From NCBI GenBank assembly GCA_902560875.1, contig CACENO010000001.1, positions 112,514-176,513 of the forward strand: a DNA stretch of 64,000 nucleotides, in the 5' to 3' direction. Below, piece by piece: positions 45,280 through 55,066 of this stretch. The notes under the pieces are model-generated. The model did not search any database. It was given only the letters and a program-made list of their open reading frames with translations, and was not told the origin of the DNA. The stretch is from an uncultured Prochlorococcus sp. (GTDB lineage Bacteria; Cyanobacteriota; Cyanobacteriia; PCC-6307; Cyanobiaceae). Each line of letters starts with the position of its first letter. The first letter of the stretch is position 1. Made by a program: the position numbers and the translations under genes.

Positions 45280-45806
45280 ATTTAGCGTTCTTAAAAAGTT
45301 ATAAGAATCAAACGCTATAAGAATCTACCTTCTACGATATTAAATCTAAACTAATAAATTAGGAAATCAATAAAAAAATTACGATGCTTAAATAGTTGTG
45401 ATTTTGTAACCTTCATTTTAAAAAAAATCAAATCAATATGTAATATTGTCAACTTTGTCAATACTGAGTGAGCATAGCACCTGATAGAAGTAAGAACGCC
45501 TATAACAATTCCATGCCATTTATTACTTTCTAAGGAGCATTGATACTGCTATCCACAAGATTGAAAGAAAGACTAATAACAATCAACTGATCTAACAAAG
45601 AGAGATCACTAAAAGGCCAGACAGATTGGGAAGAAATTCCTAAACCTATTGAGATGGAGAAATCAGTACTTTAAAGCGACTCAAAGAATCGAACCTTTTA
45701 CCTGCTAGCTAGATATGGAGCTATATACTAAAGAATGGTTACTTAGGCACTATCAATAGTGCTTTCTACTGATGACGCGAATACAAATTTTGTCTAAAAT
45801 TTATAT

Positions 45807-45880
45807 GGCCGGGTGATGGGGCTCAGTCGGCCTGCAGAAAAGGAATAATCCTCAGTTCTGCACCTGAGAATTATTCCTTT
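45807..45880 (+). promoter_or_regulatory. Candidate structured RNA leader upstream of hli
   Basis: GGCCG(45807-45811)/CGGCC(45828-45832) hairpin; 45839-45855/45864-45880 17-bp stem with one mismatch; loop TTCTGCA (45856-45862) complementary to TGCAGAA (45833-45839). Confidence 0.5.
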
Positions 45881-45899
45881 CCAATCATGTGTTGCAAGC

Positions 45900-46001
45900 A
45901 TGAAATTCAATCGATTAAGTCAATCTGAGCGAATACATGGCAGATTTGCCATGGTAATGGTCTTTACTTTTCTCCTTTTCGAGTTTTTAAAAATTCATTA
46001 A
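45900..46001 (+). CDS. hli: Short high-light-inducible protein (HLIP)
   Basis: MKFNRLSQSERIHGRFAMVMVFTFLLFEFLKIH: 'ERxHGRxAM' chlorophyll-binding HLIP motif plus TM; below ORF-track cutoff. Confidence 0.8.
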   Translation: MKFNRLSQSERIHGRFAMVMVFTFLLFEFLKIH

Positions 46002-51731: not shown

Positions 51732-51954
51732 TGTCTCCTAAATCAAAAAAGCAGATCAAAGAGTCTTAATTCTAAAGGTAGACATATCTACTAAGCATCG
51801 TAAATCTTGCAACGTGACCTAATGAGGAATAGAGAGAATTCTTGATCCCAAATTCTTCTCATGTATCAACCGATTGAAATAAAAGAGCAGAACAAATAAA
51901 CCTCACAAGTAAAAACCCCTGTGCGCTATAAAGGCTGTCTTCTTACATCACGCA

Positions 51955-52248
51955 ATGCAGTCTCAAGGTCGTTTATCAGAAGTTCGCCTAGTTGAACGCT
52001 TAAAGCAATTCCCTATTGAAAAATGGGAAAATCTTACAGATAGTCAAAGGAATTACGCCAAAAAAGCTTGGGGAGTTCTTACGTACAAGTGGAGATGGCA
52101 AATCGCACTGAATATTCCATACCTTGCAATTTTCCTTTTAGATAGGAGTATTCCAGCTGTTCATCAATTCAATATGAATCTATTGGCCTCTATTGCTGCC
52201 AAGCTCCCCATTCCTTCTTTCGTCTCTTCATGGATAGGAGTCGGCTAG
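51955..52248 (+). CDS. Hypothetical 97-aa membrane protein (repeat copy 1)
   Basis: MQSQGRLSEVRLVERLKQFPIEKWENLTDSQRNYAKKAWGVLTYKWRWQIALNIPYLAIFLLDR...; identical to copy 2. Confidence 0.7.
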   Translation: MQSQGRLSEVRLVERLKQFPIEKWENLTDSQRNYAKKAWGVLTYKWRWQIALNIPYLAIFLLDRSIPAVHQFNMNLLASIAAKLPIPSFVSSWIGVG

Positions 52249-52303
52249 GACAGCAAGAAATGTTCAAAGAAGGGGAAAAACGTGCTGCCCTTGCAAAACC
52301 AAA

Positions 52304-52459
52304 TCATTCCTCTTCTTCCTTCCGCCCTCTCATGCCTCTTTTGACGGAAAAACTGAGCGCACCAAAAAAGAATATCGCTAAGCATCCCCAAAAAAGCCTC
52401 TCAATAAAAAGCAAAACAGGGCTACCAACTTGAATCGCAGGATCAAATAAAAAATCCAT
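52304..52459 (-). CDS. Hypothetical 51-aa membrane protein (repeat copy 1; 72 aa if GTG 52522 is used)
   Basis: MDFLFDPAIQVGSPVLLFIERLFWGCLAIFFFGALSFSVKRGMRGRKEEEE; start uncertain. Confidence 0.5.
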   Translation of the reverse strand: MDFLFDPAIQVGSPVLLFIERLFWGCLAIFFFGALSFSVKRGMRGRKEEEE

Positions 52460-53047
52460 AAAGACTAAAGAAGAAAGCCTCCAGACAAAAGGGGCTTTTG
52501 CTCTTAATAGGACCGATTGCACCCCATCACCCGGCGCCCAAAAGGAGGTTAACCACTGTCAAGGGTTTTGTCATCAGCAGATACACGCTATTCATGGGGG
52601 CGGCCACACCTTAAGAAAGAAAAAACACTATTTGTAGGGGGTTGATTTTATTGGCGATTGATCTTAGAAAATAGGTTCCCCATCACCCAGGCCCGAAGCA
52701 TAACGCGAGGGTCTTTTTTATTGCCTCTCAGCTCGCTGAGCCTCCGAGAAATGTCAGGGTAACGAGCGACGCACAATAAGCTCTTAAATGCACTGCATTA
52801 TTTTGATAATGCTAAGTAAGAATTTACAGAGGGAAAGGCGAAAATCTACCAATCGAAAAATAACAGCAGTAACAAAGCAAAAGCTTATAAAGCACAACGC
52901 ATATATCTTAACTATTAAAAGCCAATAGACAGCAAGATCTAAAAGACAGGGAGAGTGGATACCTTTTAGCCTCCAATAGGAAATACTAAAAACACAGTCC
53001 CAGATAAAAGATATTAATAATTCGAGAAAGAAAAGTGATAATAGTTG

Positions 53048-53284: not shown

Positions 53285-53531
53285 AAACTTATTTTCAATT
53301 CATTAAACATAATGAGTCCAATAATCAAATCTTTTTAATGATACTAAGCAATAAATAAAAAATAGAACCTATAACGTACAATCAACACTTCTTATGACAA
53401 ATACCCAATAACTACTTCTTACCGGGAAAGAATTGAGCTTCAACGCACATGAGAGGAGATACGGATAACCGCCCAAAGGGTATAAGTAAAAACCCCTATG
53501 CGCTATAAAGGCTGTCTTCTTACATCACGCA

Positions 53532-53825
53532 ATGCAGTCTCAAGGTCGTTTATCAGAAGTTCGCCTAGTTGAACGCTTAAAGCAATTCCCTATTGAAAAA
53601 TGGGAAAATCTTACAGATAGTCAAAGGAATTACGCCAAAAAAGCTTGGGGAGTTCTTACGTACAAGTGGAGATGGCAAATCGCACTGAATATTCCATACC
53701 TTGCAATTTTCCTTTTAGATAGGAGTATTCCAGCTGTTCATCAATTCAATATGAATCTATTGGCCTCTATTGCTGCCAAGCTCCCCATTCCTTCTTTCGT
53801 CTCTTCATGGATAGGAGTCGGCTAG
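53532..53825 (+). CDS. Hypothetical 97-aa membrane protein (repeat copy 2)
   Basis: Identical to 51955-52248. Confidence 0.7.
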   Translation: MQSQGRLSEVRLVERLKQFPIEKWENLTDSQRNYAKKAWGVLTYKWRWQIALNIPYLAIFLLDRSIPAVHQFNMNLLASIAAKLPIPSFVSSWIGVG

Positions 53826-53880
53826 GACAGCAAGAAATGTTCAAAGAAGGGGAAAAACGTGCTGCCCTTGCAAAACCAAA

Positions 53881-54036
53881 TCATTCCTCTTCTTCCTTCC
53901 GCCCTCTCATGCCTCTTTTGACGGAAAAACTGAGCGCACCAAAAAAGAATATCGCTAAGCATCCCCAAAAAAGCCTCTCAATAAAAAGCAAAACAGGGCT
54001 ACCAACTTGAATCGCAGGATCAAATAAAAAATCCAT
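53881..54036 (-). CDS. Hypothetical 51-aa membrane protein (repeat copy 2)
   Basis: Identical to 52304-52459. Confidence 0.5.
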   Translation of the reverse strand: MDFLFDPAIQVGSPVLLFIERLFWGCLAIFFFGALSFSVKRGMRGRKEEEE

Positions 54037-55066
54037 AAAGACTAAAGAAGAAAGCCTCCAGACAAAAGGGGCTTTTGCTCTTAATAGGACCGATTGCACC
54101 CCATCACCCGGCGCCCAAAAGGAGGTTAACCACTGTCAAGGGTTTTGTCATCAGCAGATACACGCTATTCATGGGGGCGGCCACACCTTAAGAAAGAAAA
54201 AACACTATTTGTAGGGGGTTGATTTTATTGGCGATTGATCTTAGAAAATAGGTTCCCCATCACCCAGGCCCGAAGCATAACGCGAGGGTCTTTTTTATTG
54301 CCTCTCAGCTCGCTGAGCCTCCGCTCCTCAGTAGAACTTTTCAAAATCATGGAAGATGCTGACAAAATGCAAAATAAGCTTATTTGGACTATTTAAATTT
54401 CCTAGCGACAAAGCTTTCTAATTAAATTGTATAGATATGAAAATTAATTCAATAGTCTTTGCGTTAAATGCATAATCCTCATGAATAAAAGATAAGCCTT
54501 ATCCCCTCATTTTCAAAAGTAATGATTATATCTTTGAAATTATAGGTAAAGCAAGTATCGTAAATTGACAGGTGATGAAGTCTTCCCCAAAGCAAGCAAT
54601 AGAAGTATTTACCTCTGATCTTATTCTCCTTTCTGAAAAGATTTATACACCTTTCCTTGCAACTTACAATACTTTAAGTCATTATTTTTGTTTTTAAAAA
54701 TGTACAAATTCAAAATATGCCAAAGCTCCCTGGCAGGATCCGCTTAAAAATGTAAATAATGGGAAATCAAATAGCCAATAATGCTTCCTGTAATTCACTC
54801 TATTCAAGAGCTATCAATCTGTAACGAATGCCTAGCAAAATAAAACCTTCTAAAGGATTAAGGTGTTACAGCTTCTTTCGCTGAGCAAAAAGAAGCGAAA
54901 CGCTCAGCCTCCAAAAGAAAAATACTAAGGCGTGTAATGCGTCAAGAGGCAAAGACAAAAGTTTAATGGGTCAAAAGTATTAAAACTACTTGTCGCATTA
55001 GCGTTTTAAGTTAGTATGATCATACTAATCCTTAATATTTCTATATCAAAGAAATTCTAATTTGTA

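Follow-up and report, generated by a model that had tools for sequence, protein, structure and literature searches.

The leader of a tiny hli gene in a 64,000-nucleotide stretch of uncultured Prochlorococcus DNA (the window, meaning the whole stretch analysed) opens with a hairpin, element A, which sequence comparison firmly establishes as an RNA element that is conserved, covaries and has no counterpart in current libraries. It has a conserved loop, GGUGAUGGGGAUCA, on a 5-bp stem whose two sides covary, and several copies are present in most picocyanobacterial genomes. The element, its covariation, its mimicry of a sigma-factor start site (element D), its complementarity to a predicted small RNA (element B) and the conserved architecture around it are all evident from the sequence. 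A target-mimic leader or small RNA is the description that suits A best. A decoy model, in which B would repress translation of the sigma factor and A transcripts would titrate B, has in our judgement an even chance of being correct.

Architecture of the hli leader

The features of the locus are the following.

45747..45762, plus strand: inverted repeat GCACTAT-CA-ATAGTGC, a possible transcription-factor site at about -60 to -45 (from the sequence)
45757..45776, plus strand: conserved promoter element TAGTGCTTTCTACTGATGAC (pattern match across genomes)
45795..45800, plus strand: -10-like TAAAAT (spacing repeated in homologous loci)
45807..45832, plus strand: element A, hairpin GGCCG-[GGUGAUGGGGCUCAGU]-CGGCC, mimic of the sigma-factor start hairpin (family occurrence, covariation, lineage specificity)
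45839..45880, plus strand: terminator-like hairpin with a 17-position stem, loop TTCTGCAC and a weak U-tract (folding; homologous to CCTCAGTTCTGCATCTGAGGGTTTTC of loci L306 and L308)
45900..46001, plus strand: mini-HLIP gene, 33 aa (Pfam PF00504; 12 relatives behind other A leaders)

The preliminary description of this DNA had placed two hairpins and a possible pseudoknot directly upstream of hli, and the bases it named for hairpin 1, stem 2, the loop, TGCAGAA, TAAAAT and the ATG are all found in the sequence. Hairpin 1 (45807-45832) is formed by GGCCG at 45807-45811 and CGGCC at 45828-45832, with 16 nt between them. Stem 2 pairs 45839-45855 with 45864-45880, 16 of the 17 positions being Watson-Crick pairs and one a C-A mismatch (45850/45869), and its loop of 8 nt occupies 45856-45863. 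TGCAGAA at 45833-45839 is a perfect complement of TTCTGCA in this loop; TAAAAT lies at 45795-45800 and the ATG of hli at 45900. Upon folding, the region 45795-45910 beat 199 of 200 shuffled sequences (z = -3.3), and a predicted transcript resembling 45801-45880 beat all 200 (z = -4.2).

The promoter-like site that had been suggested upstream of hairpin 1 is real, and its -10 spacing is kept in homologous loci. GATGAC (45771-45776), 18 nt from the -10, is likely the -35. TTGACA, which occurs in many A promoters, was rejected as the -35 because only ~5 nt separate it from the conserved TANNNT, and (C/G)ATGAC at 18 nt fits better. Transcription would start near 45806-45807. The promoter-element pattern was matched in 24 of 300 genomes with a low control, most matches being followed by an A hairpin and a mini-HLIP gene, and palindromes like the 45747-45762 repeat (e.g. 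CACTATAAATAGTG) are found upstream of many A copies. A tRNA remnant upstream of the leader was unsupported.

HLIPs are recognised by a chlorophyll-binding (ExxHGRxAM-type) helix. The 33-aa ORF scored 24.5 bits against Pfam PF00504, above the gathering cut-off of 22.3, which upholds its reading as an hli gene. Mini-HLIP genes of 30-37 residues stand behind A in 13 loci, the window included, and these relatives have F3, L6, E10, R15 and A17 in common. The TAGTGCTTNCTACTNATGAC promoter element, the A hairpin, a terminator-like hairpin and the mini-HLIP gene occur together in the window and in L293, L301, L302, L303, L305, L306, L307, L308 and L309; L300 has the gene with no clear terminator, and L038 and L039 have the same setting with a looser promoter. 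The suggestion of a small RNA with read-through into hli fits these relatives well, where all four parts co-recur. Other A leaders precede a family of 57-66-aa proteins (MNLGLLFLESLSSGVIT..., MNLGLLFLESLSSGVITxEEMDWV...LGCRI), which lies directly behind A in L020, L022, L023, L034, L046, L048, L049, L063, L086 and L089 and gave no significant match in Pfam or NCBIfam.

Stem 2 matches a terminator pattern (CUCAG/CUGAG, tail AATTATTCCT) but lacks a clean U-run, with UUUU present in its homologs. Its loop sequence UUCUGCA is common to several A terminators (CCTCAGTTCTGCATCTGAGGGTTTTC in L306, TTTTCTGCAT in L003 and L005), and stem 2 is therefore probably the local version of the family terminator; its poor U-tract would favour read-through into hli. 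The terminator loop UCUGCA, which contains the palindrome UGCA, is kept in many A transcripts (L003, L005, L008, L021, L044, L306, L308), and it could serve as a second pairing or dimer site.

Element A and the sigma-factor start site

When the genome that contains the window was searched at the DNA level, the other matches covered hairpin 1 only, with GGGTGATGGGGNTCA recurring there. Sampling 151 Cyanobiaceae genomes, we found CCGGGTGATGGGGNTCA with at most two mismatches in 148, a count that takes in sigma-factor starts and, for GC-rich genomes, chance matches; a reversed-pattern control was mostly far lower. The full pattern CCGGGTGATGGGGATCANNCGGT was found in 43 stretches among 85,462 species, all of them titled Prochlorococcus, Synechococcus or Synechococcaceae. 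A copies have their own promoter region and are usually followed by a terminator-like hairpin, and behind many of them a strong terminator is followed by no ORF. Rfam gave no family match at the leader, the A copies or the B copies; the neighbouring Yfr2 and Yfr10-like genes do match.

For covariation we aligned 53 A copies and 6 sigma-factor starts, 59 distinct sequences that are related to one another; six further A copies, whose loops differ in length or whose stems are unclear, were left out. Each of the five outer pairs of A/D changes on both sides somewhere in this alignment. There were 23 double-change cells where shuffles gave 3.3, the paired share of cells was 93.8% compared with 87.6%, and no slid register came close. 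In the four inner pairs, UGAU/AUCA, variation is confined to one side (G-U), and the predicted fold contains an inner mini-hairpin, UGAU-GGGG-AUCA. Hairpin 1 thus does show compensatory changes, the lack of which the preliminary description had named as refuting its reading.

Element D, AGGAGGCCAGGGTGATGGGGATCCCTCTGG, is the translation start of one sigma factor of group 2 (Sig70-cyanoRpoD, TIGR02997), with the ATG inside the loop. It folds in the same way as A, as CCAG-[16-nt loop]-CUGG, and in a more distant lineage (L364) GCGA/UCGC flank the same GGUGAUGGGG; the A loop and the sigma-factor start have GGUGAUGGGG and the hairpin form in common, and both are complementary to B. When loci were fetched by the sigma-factor protein, ignoring the motif, the same hairpin was found at the sigma-factor start in all 30. 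Codons 2 (GGG), 3 (ATC) and 5 (CTG) were identical in 31 of 31 sequences, and of the 222 columns in which a degenerate amino acid never changes, only four used a single codon throughout these sequences, three being codons 2, 3 and 5. Judged by this codon usage, D is under selection at the nucleotide level.

D is probably PMT2246, because of its position near the end of the genome that we take to be MIT9313 (G077); we likewise presume that G017 is SS120 and G215 is CC9605. PMT2246 is a sigma factor reported to be induced under nitrogen depletion (PMC2758279). In two genomes of one genus the sigma factor has diverged (64% identity; its start is GGTTGATGGG) and GGTGATGGGG occurs only at sites lacking A/B features, and one 95%-complete genome lacking a matching sigma factor has a single, featureless GGTGATGGGG match. 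This apparent co-absence of the sigma-factor motif, A and B in three genomes from two genera is supportive evidence, not strong.

Element B and a proposed titration by decoys

B, a predicted small RNA of ~45 nt, is encoded divergently on the other strand, at a distance of ~150 nt from many A copies. It has the form CCCCATCACC(C)AGG followed by a terminator and carries CCCCAUCACCC, the exact complement of the loop shared by A and D. Two A/B pairs are present in the window, at 52.5 and 54.1 kb, and both belong to an exact duplication of 825 bp.

52513..52536, minus strand: second copy of element A (CGCCGGGTGATGGGGTGCAATCGG), terminator to its left (sequence family)
52674..52720, plus strand: predicted B small RNA GGTTCCCCATCACCCAGGCCCGAAGCATAACGCGAGGGTCTTTTTT (complement of the A loop and the sigma-factor start; terminator, conserved upstream region)
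54090..54113, minus strand: element A in the other copy of the 825-bp duplication (sequence family)
54251..54297, plus strand: predicted B small RNA in the other copy of the 825-bp duplication (sequence family)

The duplication is direct (51922-52746 and 53499-54323, offset 1577), with one divergent A/B pair in each copy, and is either recent or an effect of assembly. Copies also occur (setting C) behind a small gene ending ...EKCAVKA, within its 3' UTR, and there AGTGATGGGGATCACT is capable of self-pairing. Such 3' UTR copies, GAGTGATGGGGATCAC with a terminator, were seen in L005 (1364), L021 (2081), L025 (1819), L037 (1661), L090 and L097, and they possibly represent a 3'-derived decoy.

From these arrangements we infer the following course of events. 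Transcription would begin at the foot of hairpin 1, and most transcripts would stop at the second hairpin, giving an RNA of ~75-80 nt, while a part would continue into the mini-HLIP gene. In loop and stem, hairpin 1 mimics the start-codon hairpin of the group 2 sigma-factor mRNA, and B, consisting of CCCCAUCACCC and a terminator, could pair with both A and D. B, if transcribed as predicted, would block translation of the sigma factor; the A transcripts, this leader among them, would titrate B as decoys, and switching on A loci such as hli would release the sigma factor. The pairing site of A is the same as that of the presumed mRNA target of B, as is expected of a sponge or target mimic. The decoy model is the simplest account of three observations: A copies D in loop as well as stem, B is complementary to A and to D, and A, B and D tend to co-occur. 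Its extension to a circuit throughout the picocyanobacteria, in which many small RNAs and mRNA leaders bear a copy of the start-codon hairpin and transcripts of stress genes such as the mini-HLIP gene titrate B and thereby raise the group 2 sigma factor, is more tentative, and we put it somewhat below even.

Predicted pairing energies are consistent with the decoy model in part. Pairing of the window B reached -35.8 kcal/mol with the sigma-factor start (z -4.9) and -34.1 kcal/mol with the A element of the leader (z -3.7). With full-length folds taken into account, the net gain was -20.7 for the sigma-factor leader versus -10.1 for the A leader of hli, and a gain below that of the target is not ideal for a decoy; the poor U-tract of the terminator in this leader also counts against the model. 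We give conservation more weight than energy, because G-rich and C-rich motifs also bind well after shuffling.

The main rival to the decoy model is a hairpin-binding protein. A sigma-factor autoregulator or an RNA-binding protein would recognise the GGUGAUGGGGAUCA hairpin both in A RNAs and at the start of the sigma-factor gene and be titrated by A RNAs, in the manner of CsrB titrating CsrA, with B antagonising A. Because A keeps AUCA 3' of the core where B varies, B alone leaves some of the conservation of A unexplained; a protein ligand would account for stem and loop both being conserved, AUCA included, and for the mini-hairpin predicted within the loop. However, a protein by itself gives no reason for B to be an exact complement adjoining A, and we regard this explanation as unlikely.

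A leaders might instead be targets of B, in which pairing within the 5' UTR sets stability, termination or read-through in cis, in parallel to the sigma factor and as part of one B regulon. The site does lie within the 5' UTR, and A is attached to ORFs of two families, mini-HLIP and the 57-aa proteins. However, 60-90 nt separate the A site from the start codon, and the many A copies with a strong terminator and no ORF behind suit a stand-alone RNA, making it doubtful that A leaders are targets and not decoys.

We hold it very improbable that A and B are repeats, selfish or neutral, in which the motif occurs by chance: copy number does vary, the window holds an exact 825-bp duplication and one A/B pair is on a contig filed as viral, yet the fixed loop with a covarying stem, the match to the sigma-factor start, the conserved promoters and the co-absence indicate selection. 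The viral-collection pair is at 10490-10725 of L145 (IMGVR_UViG_3300006565_001309), which may be a virus, a mobile element or a host fragment. We rejected a phage-borne element, as among the viral-collection matches inspected (L208 left out) only L145 clearly has an A/B pair; the L136 match is a GC-rich chance match.

The H-type pseudoknot of the preliminary description is unsupported, and we rejected it. A linker of 0 nt across 17 bp makes it sterically incompatible with the full stem 2, the pairing is absent from both the MFE and the centroid folds, and at least six complementary bases at the partner position were found in 0 of 62 other family copies, including those with the near-identical loop TTCTGCAT; TGCAGAA upstream of stem 2 is private to this locus in comparison with these copies. 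In spite of the perfect complementarity of TGCAGAA and TTCTGCA in the window, a cis-regulatory pseudoknot switch controlling hli is hardly credible. The hairpins, the promoter-like site and the hli gene of the earlier reading stand and its read-through small RNA fits the relatives, whereas the pseudoknot and a purely cis-acting switch do not stand. Its emphasis on stem 2 was also misplaced: what is conserved and looks functional is the hairpin 1 loop, which points to RNA pairing in trans between such RNAs, a sigma-factor mRNA and an antisense small RNA.

Relation to known small RNAs

Prochlorococcus has very few regulatory proteins, and we know of no function for most of its small RNAs. A, B and D offer a concrete, testable account of a possible link from light stress to sigma-factor output, and with A as a model an RNA family missing from current libraries can be searched for. 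If the family-wide decoy circuit is true, RNA mimicry would tie single stress genes to the choice of sigma factor. In a literature search the motif and a cyanobacterial sigma-factor sponge were undescribed; A or B may still have an existing Yfr name.

Enterobacterial sponge or target-mimic RNAs titrate an sRNA by mimicking its target, as do the chbBC trap for ChiX and SroC for GcvB. A differs from these: it is a structured hairpin mimic with many copies per genome, and its presumed model is the mRNA of a sigma factor, the likely target.

Two described Prochlorococcus or Synechococcus RNAs were compared with A. Yfr6 is a MED4 transcript with a 33-aa ORF from near nt 97 and a 40-nt leader common to several small genes (PMC1242208). 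We rejected the A leader as Yfr6, since the A hairpin is missing from the yfr6 region (923780-924018 of the genome taken as SS120) and the frame is unrelated to HLIP. Yfr103 is an ncRNA that is multi-copy in marine Synechococcus and in Prochlorococcus of the low-light type; an imperfect palindrome is conserved at -58 to -29, and the paralogs in CC9605 are reported as 290-328 nt long (PMC5069720). The position of this palindrome falls where A promoters are also conserved; however, A copies in the genome taken as CC9605 are alike over at most ~80 nt, and the identity of A with Yfr103, compared by description only, is disfavoured by length.

The closest system in behaviour is the Yfr1/Yfr10/Yfr2 network (Rfam Cyano-1 RF01701, Yfr10 RF02362), in which Prochlorococcus Yfr2 titrates Yfr1/Yfr10, a demonstrated precedent (PMC6778093). 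Both systems have two types of short, terminator-ended sRNAs with complementary motifs, one titrating the other (as predicted for A and B). They differ in their motifs (CCCCAUCACCC versus GGGUGAUGGGG) and in the lack of an Rfam match for A/B; moreover, A copies a sigma-factor start hairpin, doubles as an mRNA leader and is multi-copy. A, B and the leader were accordingly rejected as Yfr2 (Cyano-1), Yfr1 or Yfr10, no covariance model matching them. The genes of this network adjoin the new elements in two loci: A lies next to Yfr10-like (ACTCCTCACAC) and Yfr2 (Cyano-1) genes in L003 and L004, and B is also present in L003.
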